From Tetrahymena elliotti 4EA (taxonomy: Eukaryota > Ciliophora > Oligohymenophorea > Hymenostomatida > Tetrahymenidae): 64,000 nucleotides of DNA. The notes below the pieces were generated by a model. That model worked only from the letters and a program-made list of their open reading frames with translations. It was not told where the DNA came from and searched no databases. The position numbers were made by a program, and so were the translations under genes. How positions within the stretch are numbered: the first letter of the stretch is position 1; every line of letters starts with the position of its first letter. The stretch is from contig JH720316.1 of NCBI GenBank assembly GCA_000231825.2, positions 270,455-334,454 on the forward strand, in the 5' to 3' direction. Below, piece by piece: positions 27,213 through 35,145 of this stretch.

Positions 27213-29498
27213 ATGGACTAAAAAAGCTAAGTTTCATAGCAATAAGATAAGATTAAATAGAAGCTAGTCAGGCATATAGAAAATAGGTAGAAAATCAGAA
27301 AAATGTATGCAGATAAGGGCATCTAAATGCTTGACAAACAAGATCTATTGAGTAATTATTCTTTTTTACATTTAAATTATAATAATGTTTCTCATTTAAT
27401 GATCTAAAAATTATTTTTCCATTTTAAGCTGCTACTCATTTTATTTTTTACATTTAATTTATTTTATTTTAAACATAAGTTTTCAGCCATTATTTTTTCA
27501 CAATATTAATAGTTTAGGATATTTAAGATCCAATTTTGAATGCCAATTAGAATGATATCTACAATGCGATGTAAAACGAACTATCTCAAAATGGATATAG
27601 CCATTTTAGGTTTTTAGGATAAGGAGCATAAGGATTAGTCGTTCTAGCTAAAGATTAGTTAACTAACAAAAGATTTGCCATCAAAGGAATACAAATCAAG
27701 GATTCCAAAGGAAACGTTGATCAGCAAGCTGTAAAATAGGTTAATCAAGAAATTAATTTGCTCAATGAATGCAAAGGATTACCATATGTTGTCAATTTTG
27801 TAGGAAAAATAGAAGGATAACAGTTTGTATATCTAGTACTCACAGAATGTTTAGGTAAAAAATAGAAAAAGTAGATTACAGTCAATTAGAAAATAATATA
27901 AGATGCAACATGACCATTAGTAATTTTTAAAAAAGGAACTCTTAACCAAATCATTTAAAAGAGTCCAGATAAGAAGTTGAATGAATTATCAGCTATTAAG
28001 TATGCCAAAGATATTGCTGAGGGCCTTTACTTTATTCACTCAAAGAAGTGTTTAGTCAATGATCTTAAAATGGATAATATCCTTATAGATTATAATGGAA
28101 ATGCAGTTATTTGTAAATTAATTTTATTCAATAAAAAGAAAGAATCACTCTTATTTATTAATTTTATTCAATAAAAAGAAAGAATCACTCTTATTTATTA
28201 ATTTTATTTATTACTTACTTACTAGCCGACTTTGGATTGGCAGATAATCTCCCTAAATAATCAGGATATACCTTGAACTTATGTGTATTTTTAAATAAAC
28301 TACATATCCTCTCATATCAAATAAATTTGTTTGGTTAATTAAGATGGGCAATGTTGCATATTAGGCACCTGAGTGCTATGATCCACAACATTATGACACT
28401 TACTTTTTAGAATACTAAAACTTAGGAATTGTTGTTAAAAGAGAGCCAAGTTAAAGAGTAATTCATTAACTTTTTGCTGAAGATAATATATTTATTTATA
28501 AAAACTAACTATCTTTATAAAGAGCGAAGCATGTTCATTAGGTAAATAAACAAATATAAATGATAAAGACAAGTGCCAAAATTGTTTGTAAAATTAATCA
28601 CAGGCTACCTAATTTACTCTATGATTTCAGGATTCAATAACAGCGTGTTGTTCAACAAGCATAATCCTTTACCATACAAACCAGAATTCTAAAACTTCAC
28701 TTACAAAAAGCAACTTCAATACATAATTGATGGATTGACTTAATTTATCCCAAGAAATAGGTTTGAGATCAAAGATGTTTTAATTATATTAAAAGGAATT
28801 ATTTCATTTGAATTTTCTTTAGATAGTAGGTTTTTCGAACTCGTTGAAACTGAAGAAGAAGAAGAAGAAGAGTCACTTTAACAATTAATAAAAAAATTCA
28901 AGAATGAAATTGAATTGGTTCAACAATTTGAAAATAAGTTTTATCCAGTCATGTATGTAGCTTTTTTAAACCTTCTGAAAATTACTTCTAAATCTTTTTT
29001 ATAGTAAAAATGAGTAGAACTTACTTTAGCAACTTGACTCAAAACAATCTTAACAAGTAGATTCCAAATTAGATATTAAGTTCGTTGCTTGAATTAAATA
29101 ATTAATTAATTAATTAACTAAAATAGGTTTCAGTTATTGAAGAACTAAATTAAAAAATAAAGAGCTTGAATGAAACTATTTAGCAATTACAAAATGAAAA
29201 CAAATAATATTAGAATTATTCATCAAATAACTAACATTTTGTTTAAAATAAATAAGCTTATTCTAATTAGGTATTCAATTAGCAAGTATCAACTTAGCCA
29301 ACTTCAAGCCAAAAAGATAATTAATTGAAGCAAGAGCCTGGGGAAAAAAAAGAAATTCAATTGTTTTAGCAAAATCAGATTTCAGAACAGAATGTTTCAC
29401 AACAAAAGATTTAATCTAACAAGTAATTAGATTTTGTTGATTTCATAAATTTAAATGCAACTAATTCAAGATTCTTTCCAAAATACTATTTAATATGA
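27213..29498 (+). CDS. Protein kinase-like protein with coiled-coil tail, many introns
   Basis: Clear exons: 27213-27351, 27513-27854, 27921-28112, 28226-28284 and from 28344, all with GTA..AG introns in consistent phase. The kinase domain has glycine loop FRFLGQGAQGLVVLAKD, lysine RFAIKGIQI, catalytic loop CLVNDLKMDNIL (HRD replaced by VND, Asp and Lys kept), SDFGLADNL (DFG intact) and NVAYQAPECYDP (APE). Beyond the APE motif the splice phase is unresolved: the frame of 28344-28540 does not match that of the exon from about 28600 unless an unusual donor (GTTAAA near 28452) is used. The distal part has a GLTQFIPRNRFEIKDVL C-lobe helix, a Glu run, then Q/N-rich coiled coil to TGA 29496-29498. 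Active or recently decayed; I cannot decide. Confidence 0.6.
28118..28197. repeat. 40-bp tandem duplication within an intron
   Basis: Two exact adjacent copies of a 40-bp unit (landmark ATTTTATTCAATAAAAAGAA at 28121 and 28161) plus a partial third lie in the intron 28113-28225 that separates the HRD-type and DFG exons. Confidence 0.9.
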
Positions 29499-29567: not shown

Positions 29568-32500
29568 ATGAATGAATATATGTATGTGTTTATAGATCTT
29601 TTAAAATAACATCCTTCTTTCTTAAAAAAATTAAAATTCTTTTGTTAAGTCATTTGAGATCATTTGGAAAATTTACTATTTTTAATAATAATCAAAACAG
29701 GAAGTAATTTTTCGATCTTATTTGCATATTAATGTCAAAATAATGGTTTAACTAATTAGACAGTATCCTTTTTCAAATTACTTTTAATTATGCTAATTAA
29801 ATGATCTTATTGTTCATTATTAACAGAGGGTAAGCAGTTCAAAATATAATTTTATCTTTATTTACTTTTCTTTTATAAAAAGCTAGTAAAATTATCAACA
29901 TTCCTCATTTGTTTGCCAAAATAAATTCATTGATTCTAATTTTATAAAGTGTGTAAAATTTTAGCTGCTTCTTATATCTTTACTACTAATTAGAATATAC
30001 TATCTCCTAATCAATTATTTTTATTTCAAAAGCTAGTAATTTCTTAAATCATAATGAACTCATTCGTTTCATAATTATTTTCATATTAAAAATAGTGAGT
30101 AATTAATTAATATTCTTGAAGGATTTTAGATTGAAAGATGATGAAAATCATGACCATGCAATGCAGCATTCTGAATTTATTTATTTATTTTCNNNNNNNN
30201 NNNNNNNNNNNNNNNNNNNNNNNNNNNNNNNNNNNNNNNNNNNNNNNNNNNNNNNNNNNNNNNNNNNNNNNNNNNNNNNNNNNNNNNNNNNNNNNNNNNN
30301 NNNNNNNNNNNNNNNNNNNNNNNNNNNNNNNNNNNNNNNNNNNNNNNNNNNNNNNNNNNNNNNNNNNNNNNNNNNNNNNNNNNNNNNNNNNNNNNNNNNN
30401 NNNNNNNNNNNNNNNNNNNNNNNNNNNNNNNNNNNNNNNNNNNNNNNNNNNNNNNNNNNNNNNNNNNNNNNNNNNNNNNNNNNNNNNNNNNNNNNNNTAA
30501 TATTCTTGAAGGATTTTAGATTGAAAGATGATGAAAATCATGACCATGCAGCATTCTGAATTTATTTATTTATTTTCATATTAAAAATAGTGTGTAAAAT
30601 AAAAAAATATTGATTGAAAATAAAAAATTTTTTTAAAATAAAATTTAGTTTGTAATTTTTTGGAGATGAAATTAAAAACATTAAAACTATTTGGTAAGAT
30701 AACTAAATAAATAAAATATAAAATAAAGGAAGTAAATTTGAAGATAAATTTTGAAGATTAAAAGACATTTATAACTTTGAAAATAAAAGTGAGTAAGGAG
30801 TTGTATCAAAATAAATAATAAATTAACTTATTAACTATCTATTAGTATATTTCTTTTTTAGTTAAATAAATAATTAGATAGTTAGTTAGTTATTTAAAAA
30901 TTGCAGATATTTATAAATTCCTTTAAAATTAAAATAGGCAGTAAAATTACTAGATAATTTTTGATTAGTTTTGTTTAAATCTAAAAATGTGTAATGACAA
31001 ATAGAAAGGAGTAATAAATACATGACAATAAAATAATTAGAATTAGTTGAGTTATTTATGATCTAAAATATAATCTAGCAAGTAATTTTTAAGTTGTTTT
31101 ACATAAGTTAAGTCAGAATTAACTTAAATACGAAATGTAGATTGTAATTGTTTTTAAAAACTTTAATGAAAATATTTATTTAATTATTAAAAAATAGTAT
31201 GTAATTAATGACTTATGTTTTCTCTAATTAACTTATGATCAAATAAATCTAAAAATAGTGGGTAGTTTATTAATTGATGAAATATTTATTATAATAATAA
31301 CGATACAAATCATAAATATTTATTTTAATAAATGTGTTTAACAATAATTAAATAATTAATAGATGGTAATTAATAATTTATCGTTTTTGGTTTATAATGA
31401 GAATAAACTATGATTAAAAAAGCATGTAAATATAATTTAAGCTGTAAGAAGCAGAATAAATAATCAATATTTATTTTAAAAATAGCAAGTAATATTTCGA
31501 CTTATTTTCAGTTAGAAAGAAGAAATTAAATAAAAAACAAAATAGGAAGTAATATTATTGAATAAAATAAATTAGAAATTATTAAAAATAACCAATATTT
31601 TATCAGGTAGTAAAAAATTTGATTTGATGATTTAATGCAATTTTAGTAAGAATAAAATGATAAATTTGAAATTAAAAGAGATATCGAGAAGTAAAATTGT
31701 TTGAAAGATTTATGCTTTTCAATAAAATGTACTTATTTTGTTAATGCTAAAGAGGAGAGTAAGGATTTAAAATGAAAGTTAACTTAAATTAATAAATAAA
31801 TAAACAAATTGTCTAAAACATTCAAACAGTAGAATGTAATATTTTTAAAATGAATCAGTTTTAATAAATATGATTTAATTTAATTCAATAATTAGTAAAT
31901 ATTTTATTCAAAATAATTTCTCCTTAAACAAAATTGAACAAAAACCACAAACATAAAAGGAATTAATAAATAAAATAATTCACTCATTTATTTGATTTTA
32001 ATCAATTTCTCATTTTTTTATTTAAAAATTTTTAAAATATGAATAAATAGCTTGTGAGATAAATTCATTAATCTTAGTTAGTACAGAAACTCAAAATTTT
32101 AACATATTTGTATTTAGGATGTAATAAATTAATTAATTAATTTCTTATTTCATTTATTTTTTTTTTAATTAATAATTTCTTAATCCTTGATACTAATAAA
32201 TTCTTATACAAACTAAACTAATTAGATTGTAAGAAAATTGAACAACTCTTTTATCCTTTATGCTTGAACATTTTATTTCACAATTTAAAAAAAGATGGTA
32301 AATTTATTTTTATTTTCTTAGTTTTATTCTAAATTTAACTTTATATTTAATATAGGCAGAAGTAATTCTTAATATTTTATTTCTCATAAGAAATTTTAAA
32401 CTTCTTGAATATCTAAAATAGCTTGTAATTTTTCACTATGTAAATTCTAATAAATATGAACAAAATAACTATTAAAATAGCTTGTAGAAACTTTAAAGGA

Positions 32501-35145
32501 TTTAAATTGATTTTAAGAAATGAGTTTTGATATTTAAAATAGTTGGTAATACTTTCAGTTATTAACTTATTTCTAAAAATATTAACCAATTTTTACTTAT
32601 TTACATAGGAAGTAACAGAAATACTTTGTGACTTTAATTAATAAATTTTATAAAGGAAAAGGTAAATAAATAAAATTACTAGTATTAATATGGATAAGTA
32701 TATTTTTGATAATAATTAGGATGTAATCAAATAATTTATTTAAATTTAAATTAAACAAATCAAATCAACAAACAACCATAAAATAGTGGGTAGAACTTGA
32801 AATACTTTTGAGTAGAATATTTGTAATGTTTTTTAATAAAATAGGAGGTAAAATTTTAGAATGAAAGCTTAAAGAAGATGGAGAATATAATTTATTTAAT
32901 ATCTAAATAGAGTGTATTAATTGTTATTATTTCAATTCTAATTACAATATTAATTTCTTTTTAAATAGTTCGTAATATTTTTAATTGGACAAGAAAAGAA
33001 CTGAATTGATTATCAGACTTCTTTTTTTATAAAAAGATTGTAAAAGATATTAAAACTCTATCTATTTCAATACTACTAAAATATTTTTTCTATTAATTCA
33101 AAGAATGTAACTTACTTAGCATTTAGAGGTTCTCTATACTAAAAATAGTTTTAATTTTTTATTTTTAATTGCAAAACAGCAAGTAATTTCTTAGGATAAT
33201 TTCAAATAAAAATGCTAGAATAACTTTTAAATAAACAAGTGGGTAATCTAATCTATCTCTTGAAATAAATTTGATAGAAATAAATTAATCAAGGAATTAA
33301 CTAAATCTTATATTTTAACAGAGAGTAAGAATTATTTTAAATTAGAAAACAAAGCTAATTAATTAATACAAAAAACAAATTTAAAAGAAAGTAAATTAAA
33401 TTTTGAATGGCCTTACTGGATAAATATAAGTTAATCACTTACTCTTATTTCTCAAAATAGAATGTAAATAATGCTTTGATCAAATTGCTATCAATTCGCT
33501 AATAATGTTGAGTTAACTGTTATTTGAAAAATAGCTAGTAAATTTTAAATTTTATTTCAAATTCAATTATAAATTTTTCATTTTATAAATTAAATTATAG
33601 TCAGTAATAATTTTTGATGATTCTAATTAGATTGATAAGTTATATTTTAAAATACATACTTTAAAATAAAACAGATACAAGTAATATTATTTATTTATGA
33701 AAAGCTTTTTTATTTAAATAACTAATTCAAAATAGCAAAAAGTAATATCTGAAATAATTTAATATTGAAAGATATTAAATTTAATTTTCAAATTTAAATA
33801 GTTTGAGGTAACAAAAATTTTCATAAATTTGAACTAAAAAATATTAAAATAAATTTAAAATCAAAATAGTGAAGAGTAATATTATAAAATGATTTAATAT
33901 CTGAAAGAGGCTGATCTATTTTTTTAATTCTAAATAGAGATAAGTAATATTATTGATTCAATAAATTCATTTCTTAAATTTTTAACCAACTTTAAAAATA
34001 AAAACAGCTTTAAGTAATATGGAAATAATGAAATATAAATAGATAGATAGAATACATCAAATACTTTTTAAAAAAACAGATAGTATGATTACAAATTAAT
34101 TAAAGTTTAAAAAAATTAATTGAACTTGAATTTTTAAAATATAATATAATAGGTTGATAAAGTAATACTTTAAATAAATTTAAATACAAAATTAATGGCT
34201 AAATTAAATGACTAAATACATTTTTTATCAAAAATTGAAAATAAAATCTGGAAAATGTAAAAATATGTTTTGAGTTGACTTTGATTAATATTTAAATTAG
34301 ACCGTAAACCATTTTATTTTATGGAAAAATAAATCATTGAATAAATTTAACATAAAACAAAGGAAGTAAAATTTGATTGTGAAATTCGAAATAACTTATG
34401 AAAATTGCTCTATTAAATAAAAATTCAATTTAGCTGGTAATTCTTTTTAAATTTTTCTAAATTTCAAAAATGAATGTAATACTTTATTGAATAATTCTAA
34501 AAGCGAGTAAGATTTATCAATGTTTACATGAAGTATCTATTAATGATTAAAAATAAATAGATAGTAACTTTTTTATGGGAGAATTCAGTATCAATCAGAC
34601 TTTAATTTAAAATAATTAATCATTTTAGCGAGTAGATTTTTGTTTTGATTTAGACTTTGATTTGATTAATTTTAAATAAATATAACAGACTGTAAAATCT
34701 ATCAATTCAGAAAGATTTTATTAATCAAATTAAATAAACCAACCTAAAACAAACATAGCTTGTAATAGATTTAACCTGTTTTATTAGATGTCATTAATTC
34801 AATAACTTTTTTAATTAAGCTGGTAAAATTAATATCTAAAATGAATCTTCTTTTATTTTTGTTTAATTGTTGATCTAAAAAAGAAAGTAAAACTTTTGAA
34901 TTTGAAGAAAATTGATAAATAAAAGCAAATACTAATTATATTTGGAATTCTATTAGGTAAAATTATTGTTAAAAATATTTACTTTAAGACCGACCACTCA
35001 TCATTATGTCAAACAGAAAGTAAATTTTATAAAAACACATTTTGTTTTTTATACAAAATAAAAAACTGAATTTTAACAAAAGTTGGAAGATCTATAAAGG
35101 AGTGTCATTAGATTTAAGAAATACTAAAATAGAATCAATAGATGA
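29568..35145 (+). CDS. Microexon gene: about 69 exons of 3-12 nt plus a terminal exon
   Basis: Repeated pattern: intron end (TAG, CAG, AAG), then 3, 6, 9 or 12 nt, then GTA. 3-nt exons start at 29701, 29760, 29827, 29883, 29950, 30033, 30096, 30591, 30649, 30729, 30790, 30878, 30938, 31079, 31141, 31198, 31259, 31363, 31423, 31486, 31546, 31607, 31833, 32051 or 32078, 32118, 32226, 32295, 32422, 32481, 32543, 32609, 32720, 32787, 32845, 32911, 32969, 33037, 33104, 33180, 33240, 33322, 33388, 33461, 33535, 33601, 34080, 34301, 34363, 34434, 34504, 34561, 34629, 34689, 34759, 34820, 34884, 35017. 6-nt: 31005, 31753, 32356, 32656, 33675, 33736, 33802, 33870, 33938, 34008. 9-nt: 34153. 12-nt: 31679. 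Terminal exon 35083-35145 ends TGA. Phase-0 reading includes GQIYWMHQEVRYRERRN and KKLEDLQRSVIRFKKYQNR, suggesting a small helical protein. Codon-position GC is about 44/31/18 percent. A possible 18-nt start exon is 29568-29585 (donor GTGTTT). TGA codons occur at 30096, 30790 and 33870. Function unknown. Confidence 0.6.
30110..30577. repeat. Direct repeat flanking the assembly gap
   Basis: About 83 bp before the gap (30110-30192, beginning TATTCTTGAAGGATTTTAGA) are repeated after it (30500-30577), differing by a 5-base insertion (ATGCA) in the first copy. The flank preceding copy 1 (TCATATTAAAAATAGTG) also recurs just after copy 2, so a tandem unit holding one microexon was duplicated and the middle is missing. 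Confidence 0.85.
30193..30497. other. Assembly gap of 305 Ns
   Basis: Run of N inside the microexon gene. True length is unknown because the flanks are repeats; further microexons may be hidden here. Confidence 1.

Follow-up and report, generated by a model that had tools for sequence, protein, structure and literature searches.

Predicted kinase exons and a chain of microexons

The window, by which we mean the whole stretch of 64,000 nucleotides (nt) analyzed here (C24:270455-334454 in a 90-Mb assembly of 134 contigs), contains predicted protein kinase exons followed, between about 29.7 and 34.9 kb, by a long chain of microexons, mostly single codons, separated by short introns with GT-AG ends. 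The predicted features, in window positions, are as follows.

27213-29422, forward strand: predicted kinase exons, at 27213-27351, 27513-27854, 27936-28112, 28226 onward, 28525-28541, 28604-28956, 29030-29056 and 29127-29422 (gene model by dynamic programming with codon weights)
29701-30098, forward strand: first seven microexons, 3 nt each, starting at 29701, 29760, 29827, 29883, 29950, 30033 and 30096
30193-30497, no strand: run of 305 N inside a repeated intron of about 95 nt, both flanks matching repeated introns of the paralogous locus L018
30591-34822, forward strand: main array, with microexons of 3, 6, 9 or 12 nt separated by introns (median length 63 nt) that are placed in phase 2
31890-31962, forward strand: remains of two microexons (TTA/TGA and GAA) that are kept in the paralogues L009, L010 and L011, from the alignment
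34820-34884, forward strand: split stop TGA, with TG from the exon CTG (34820-34822) and A at 34884
34884-35145, forward strand: predicted 3' untranslated region, placed by its position after the phase-2 stop, with at least one further microexon (AAA, 34884-34886)

Within 29568-35145 the pattern AG-N3-GTA occurs 56 times and AG-N6-GTA 12 times, as compared with 2.8 and 2.2 expected from the rates in the rest of the window. No excess was found in this segment for the other AG-GTA spacings from 0 to 24 or on the reverse strand, where counts were near or below background. The segment was parsed with a Viterbi model in which exon length was free between 1 and 30 nt and the splice-site weights, trained on the 3-nt hits of the same region, covered intron positions only. 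The resulting chain at 30591-34886 comprised 58 exons, 45 of 3 nt, 10 of 6 nt and one each of 4, 9 and 10 nt. An earlier note on this DNA had proposed mostly single-codon exons in multiples of three, and both points held with exon length left free, 56 of the 58 lengths being divisible by three; the 10- and 4-nt exons would grow to 12 and 6 nt if splicing used the AG that lies two bases further upstream. The chain scored 114, whereas 200 dinucleotide shuffles reached at most 5.8 and the best of 54 other 6-kb strand-windows reached 7.2. The window thus has a long succession of tiny internal exons with lengths divisible by three, the property by which micro-exon genes are recognized. An origin of the pattern as a tandem-repeat artefact was rejected, as the eight repeat arrays that Tandem Repeats Finder gave for 25-40 kb were short, of low copy number and in no case of the period of the microexon array.

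The free parser counted 65 exons of 12 nt or less in the window, and the final chain is made up of 64 (3-12 nt each, 237 nt in total) with a median intron of 63 nt; it omits two exons used by other models (31753-31758 and 32051-32053). These counts neither confirm nor contradict the roughly 69 microexons estimated before, because the N run may conceal any number of units. An array is indeed present where the earlier note placed it, but its starting point, 29568, is intronic in our model and the chain begins at 29701. The first seven microexons read GAA ACA AGG CTA TGT CTA TGA and share alignment columns with GAA AAA AGG CTA TCT CTA CTA in L009.

The predicted N-terminal 234 amino acids of the gene match the Pfam family Pkinase (PF00069) at 1.7e-30 and 106.7 bits (cut-off 31.7). 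Protein kinases are recognized by a catalytic Lys, a catalytic-loop Asp/Asn and the DFG motif, and all of these are present in the predicted protein, which carries RFAIKG, NDLKMDN and SDFGLAD; the HRD triplet reads VND. With the kinase part as query, 126 exon-level pieces were found at several dozen places in the genome. The annotated relatives are Tetrahymena proteins, the best with 70% identity over 219 amino acids and one with 74% over 140, so that the DNA probably comes from a species other than T. thermophila; the 29 examined were 26 from T. thermophila, one from T. malaccensis and two from T. utriculariae, six of them marked partial. A predicted kinase intron contains a perfect 40-bp tandem repeat of 2.3 copies (28117-28208), at which the L009 alignment has a 41-base gap. 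In L009, an upstream frame with leucine-rich-looking repeats (L009:661-1303) was merged into the kinase model by the dynamic programming and is probably a separate gene.

About a dozen paralogues in the same genome carry such chains. They were located by a genome-wide pattern search, and ten 10-kb stretches together with later pieces were parsed. In 12 well-covered kinase-tail loci, 607 of the 632 exons in the free-length chains were multiples of three; this total includes L018 and excludes L017 (21/27), C17b (7/7, mostly N), C3b (55/60), C16 (32/32) and C1 (17/20). Over 614 introns the median length was 62 nt. Even in copies only about 65% alike in DNA, the exons stood in the same alignment columns. 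Three microexons in a row were matched 294 + 75 times genome-wide, as compared with 15 + 9 for the reversed pattern. Since the stretches scanned account for 169 of these matches, 12 of which are in the window, we estimate that the genome may hold some 30 arrays. The examined stretches of C77, C23a and C40b contained no array; long stretches of N interrupt C72, C3:2321k and, after three microexons, C10, and the C106 piece is short and contains a gap. Runs of N also lie inside arrays or at their expected start in the window (30193-30497), L010, L016, L034, L042, L043 and L047, perhaps where similar introns defeated the assembly, and unit numbers are underestimated because of them.

Reading frame, stop and an intronless relative

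Exon lengths by themselves leave the phase undetermined. We therefore counted stops in three frames, frame 0 corresponding to introns in phase 0 and frame 1 to introns in phase 2, in 588 microexons of 11 genes (L018 excluded) whose exons were located without knowledge of the frame. TGA occurred 36 times in frame 0, 9 times in frame 1 and 30 times in frame 2. None of the frame-1 TGAs was internal; all nine sat at one terminal junction, CTG|A, which closes 9 of the 11 chains and is absent as a stop from L012 and L015. As compared with permutations of exon order, it is the position of the frame-1 TGAs and the absence of internal ones that are unusual. The proposal of phase 0 in the earlier note fails on the 36 TGAs in that frame (two in the window, none in L009).

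The substitutions in six paralogue pairs pointed in the same direction. Read in frame 1, 72 single changes comprised 29 synonymous, 43 non-synonymous and no stop-changing ones; frame 0 gave 107 changes (16, 80 and 11, respectively) and frame 2 gave 93 (22, 63 and 8). The paralogous genes share ancestry, so that the frame counts are not independent. The synonymous signal for frame 1 stems from the more distant pairs, and the closest pairs alone do not discriminate: the synonymous fractions for the window and L009 were 0.26, 0.26 and 0.20 by frame, and frame 1 was not favoured by this fraction in L010-C24b (at most eight changes) or L014-L010. The GC content by codon position from which phase 0 had been argued was as described (0.50/0.31/0.22 over the loci examined), but the argument was misleading. 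In phase 2 the first base of each exon is the wobble base, and it is GC-rich (296/631); this is also why codon-weighted views lean to phase 0.

Gene models without codon weights, in which in-frame TGA was forbidden and multiples of three were preferred, were built for 12 loci and C82. Of these 13 loci, 8 end in YELF*, YELN* or YELFC*. In the window, the last exon of the kinase part leads into the array in phase 2. The 63-nt terminal coding exon proposed earlier (about 35083-35145) is downstream of the conserved phase-2 stop.

One paralogue, C4, has no introns. Its open reading frame of 620 amino acids begins with the kinase (2.8e-34) and continues into a contiguous tail. When a profile of ten phase-2 tails, L014 not being among them, was run against this tail and 5000 shuffles, the C4 tail ranked 1st of 5001, with an expectation value (E) of 0.004; profiles made from frames 0 and 2 ranked it 2342nd and 345th of 5001. 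These results modestly support the view that the contiguous tail of C4 is distantly related to the microexon tails. The tail profile found no match in the 29 annotated Tetrahymena relatives (best E 3.8); in several of these the annotated end may extend into intron sequence. The family has another kinase without introns (L020:1468-3606, C32:536k; 712 amino acids), in which the C-terminal half is different and hydrophobic.

Divergence of exons, similarity of introns and a second family

Between the window and L009, 44 of 207 microexon bases differ, as compared with 112 of 2886 bases of the intervening introns; among intron bases 4-20 nt from the exons, 55 of 1840 differ (p 5e-20 against the exons). 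Exon differences in the other pairs amounted to 52/153 (L011-L012), 8/195 (L010-C24b), 50/180 (L009-L010) and 60/141 (L010-L011), and the near-intron rates, 0.115, 0.014, 0.187 and 0.294, respectively, were each below the exon rate. When sites were separated by base, the three closer pairs had an exon excess at GC as well as at AT sites; L009-L010 and L010-L011 had it at AT sites alone and showed the reverse at GC sites. In the kinase introns of the window and L009, 38 of 360 aligned bases differ, and thus the array introns are unusually alike and the exons unusually divergent. Non-synonymous change per site in this pair was 0.193 in the array against 0.055 in the kinase part (p 1e-7), and synonymous change 0.263 against 0.116 (p 0.03), giving a ratio (pN/pS) of 0.73 in the array and 0.47 in the kinase part; the arrays of the other pairs gave 0.47-1.14. 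Because synonymous change is raised too, what these values demonstrate is fast change and not plain positive selection.

The paralogue L018 (C24:43.3-44.5k) has ten exons that are absent from L009, flanked by introns of about 95 nt that closely resemble one another, and at L018:331-1466 closely similar introns are separated by unrelated 3-nt exons. The window intron beside the N run matches many L018 introns at 76-97%. Identity of adjacent L018 introns computed without gapped columns was not relied on, as unrelated neighbours reach 75-84% by that measure. Instead, similar pairs were counted among trimmed introns and compared with the number expected from dinucleotide shuffles. We found 61 pairs against 0.4 expected in L018 and 149 against 2.6 in L013, followed by L009 (19/2.0), C82 (9/2.0), C24b (4/1.7), L010 (4/1.4), L016 (1/1.3) and the window (1/1.7). 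In L018 and L013, exons next to the most similar introns were no more alike than other exons. Either introns were copied without exons, or units were duplicated and their codons then changed fast.

Two further arrays, at L058:1978-4158 (C16:851.5-853.7k) and, on the minus strand, in L059 (C1:454.3-455.9k), belong to non-kinase genes. The two genes are similar in their N-terminal parts (1.8e-7, 34% over 90 amino acids, with a Cys/His pattern), which matched no Pfam family above cut-off. In C16 all 32 exons are multiples of three, 29 of them 3 nt long, and the free model stays in phase 0 from the preceding exons throughout. In C1, 17 of 20 exons are multiples of three, and phase 0 was kept only in the model that prefers such lengths. 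TGA occurs 0, 2 and 2 times by frame in C16 and in no frame of C1, for which the stop test is uninformative. From their sequences, the arrays of this second family apparently share phase 0 with the conventional exons beside them. A search for relatives of the C1 protein gave none at 0.001, and a search of this genome for a contiguous copy of these arrays gave none, the one match being to the gene's own flanking exon.

Interpretation and comparable systems

Taken together, the data make it very probable that the stretch is the C-terminal tail of a protein kinase gene, predicted to be spliced from about 65 exons of 3-12 nt across GT-AG introns of about 62 nt, all in phase 2. What can be read directly in the DNA is the chain with its exon lengths, a phase-2 frame that stays open, a conserved end and the presence of paralogues; the splicing is predicted. 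The chain of one- to four-codon exons described by the earlier note thus stands, on the length statistics, the paralogues and, modestly, the intronless relative, but as a segment that, by prediction, closes a kinase gene at its 3' end and not as a whole gene; its phase 0 and its terminal coding exon do not.

Several observations weigh against this reading. Five of the 13 locus models end earlier or elsewhere: L011 and L012 end in FNC*, and in YELF* only with codon weights, L014 ends in TLF*, and L018 and C17b reach no such end. L015 reads Cys at the stop position, and further introns follow the stop. Phase-tracking models that do not favour lengths divisible by three wander from phase to phase in several copies, and codon-weighted models put part of L013 and all of L018 in phase 0 and L017 in phase 1. 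The stop test is silent for L018, which has no TGA in any frame. Permutation of exon order predicts a mean of 10.1 TGAs in frame 1, and the count of nine is therefore not unusual in itself. Single tails match the C4 open reading frame weakly (best z 3.0, from the badly modelled L017, with the window next at 2.6), and the C4 tail went unreported by an earlier profile built from nine tails that were less complete. A protein database search with the C4 tail, the microexon tails not being searched there, gave 25 candidates and none at E 0.01. In the window itself, the model is poor for the kinase exon at about 28226-28457, and two microexons have been lost, by a changed acceptor and a 9-nt deletion that left the frame intact, and this copy may be decaying.

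It is unlikely, on balance, that the chain is real but belongs, in the window and perhaps in other copies, to a pseudogene in decay from which no working mRNA is spliced. The two lost microexons, the poorly modelled kinase exon and the higher pN/pS of the array would fit such decay; the absence of internal phase-2 stops in the 11 copies examined, the 607 of 632 exon lengths in multiples of three, and near-exon intron bases that differ far less than exon bases (55/1840 against 44/207) would not. We consider it very improbable that the array is coding in phase 0, with a 63-nt terminal exon ending in TGA at 35145, even though the GC by codon position resembles normal coding DNA and codon-weighted models choose this phase for part of some chains. 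The frame-0 TGAs come close to refuting it, 11 of the 107 differences would change a stop, and the frame-0 profile is blind to C4.

The recurring AG-N3-GT looks like a recursive splice site to which three bases have been added, and the array might be one long intron removed stepwise, its 3-nt pieces being non-coding landing sites. This, too, seems very improbable to us, given the 6-, 9- and 12-nt pieces aligned between paralogues, the open frame, the conserved C-terminus and the synonymous-rich change in one phase, and the contiguous relative in C4. Ciliates delete internal sequences, and the spacers could in principle be excised from DNA during nuclear development and not from RNA. We give this the least credence, as the spacers have GT-AG ends and ordinary intron length, and contigs end in GGGGTT repeats, as in rearranged somatic chromosomes. 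GGGGTT, which we take to be the Tetrahymena-type telomere repeat, gave 80 + 33 matches; among the matches listed, no reverse one is further than 82 bases from the start of its contig, C3 and C40 carry the repeat at the very ends, and C24 is absent. The reversed pattern is this repeat out of register and so carries no information as a control. The assembly is thus likely to be the somatic genome of a Tetrahymena-type ciliate, and in telomere-capped, rearranged chromosomes developmental deletions would already have occurred.

If the array is a spliced phase-2 kinase tail, its anatomy suggests intron definition, each short intron being recognized as a unit across the intron. Two spliceosomes could probably not occupy splice sites 3 nt apart, and adjacent introns would therefore leave in turn, each removal adding a new codon to the growing 5' exon. 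Since the exons are multiples of three in a single phase, skipping, loss or gain of one would change residues without a frameshift, and two exons of the window copy are already gone by such frame-neutral loss. Extra units are likely to arise where introns are copied, as suggested by the paralogue with ten extra exons, similar introns and unrelated codons. The fast-diverging tail of about 80 residues may, as a guess, set the binding partner of each kinase.

The comparison with known systems draws on parts of the cited papers. RNA sequencing of T. thermophila found more intron retention than exon skipping, which was taken as intron definition (PMC3274533). Leucine-rich repeat (LRR) genes of the same genus have arrays of equal-length, multiple-of-three exons with more than 98% of the preceding introns in phase 2, for which exon shuffling with unequal crossing over was proposed (PMC6564038); those exons, however, are of 90 bp and encode LRRs, whereas the present ones are of 3-12 nt and follow a kinase. 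The words "microexon" and "micro-exon" are absent from the main text of that paper, and no LRR family was among the Pfam matches of the pieces scanned (the L013 tail partly in phase 0). The aphid bicycle and megacycle genes likewise have many small internal exons, nearly all in phase 2, and evolve fast, the megacycle gene using more than 100 microexons for about 2000 amino acids (PMC9168663); by arithmetic this is tens of bases per exon, the products are putative insect effectors, and the likeness is structural, with no kinship claimed. Schistosome micro-exon genes share short exons (3-81 bp) but have introns of up to 5 kb and encode secreted proteins, as compared with introns of about 62 nt and a kinase here (PMC10526429). 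Isolated exons of 1-3 nt can be spliced, as in Arabidopsis APC11 (PMC4674806), where intron definition with successive removal of both introns was proposed for the 1-nt exon, and Drosophila homothorax (PMC7392893), and plant exons of 1-15 nt are described (PMC8831610); these occur singly or two adjacent, in contrast to 50-75 consecutive ones here. Introner-like elements (PMC4457414) form families of introns that resemble one another, as those of L018 and L013 do, but such a family was not seen in the window copy, and random insertion leaves the one-codon spacing unexplained. As described in these sources, the nearest systems have no runs of single-codon exons, so that the array would be a micro-exon gene variant, extreme in degree; among the open-licence papers listed, judged by titles and the beginnings of abstracts, none on Tetrahymena or other ciliates describes such genes.

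Such genes may have been missed by annotation: the 29 annotated relatives have no tail match, and one T. thermophila mapping demanded 8 bp on either side of a junction (PMC3274533). More broadly, we see about an even chance that in this ciliate spliceosomal introns can fill coding DNA so densely that single codons stand between them, and that this happened more than once, in the phase-2 kinase tails and in the unrelated phase-0 Cys/His-rich family, with an estimated thirty or so arrays. The codon would then be the unit of gene structure; introns would copy along the gene, and one-codon exons would act as replaceable cassettes gained, lost and rewritten without touching the frame or the splice sites. 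A protein tail with an exon for nearly every residue would show that a spliceosome relying on intron definition can manage with exons of almost no length, and fidelity would depend on some 65 splicing events in succession. Two questions would become testable in a laboratory organism, the order in which introns 3 nt apart are removed and the way in which introns multiply at codon spacing.

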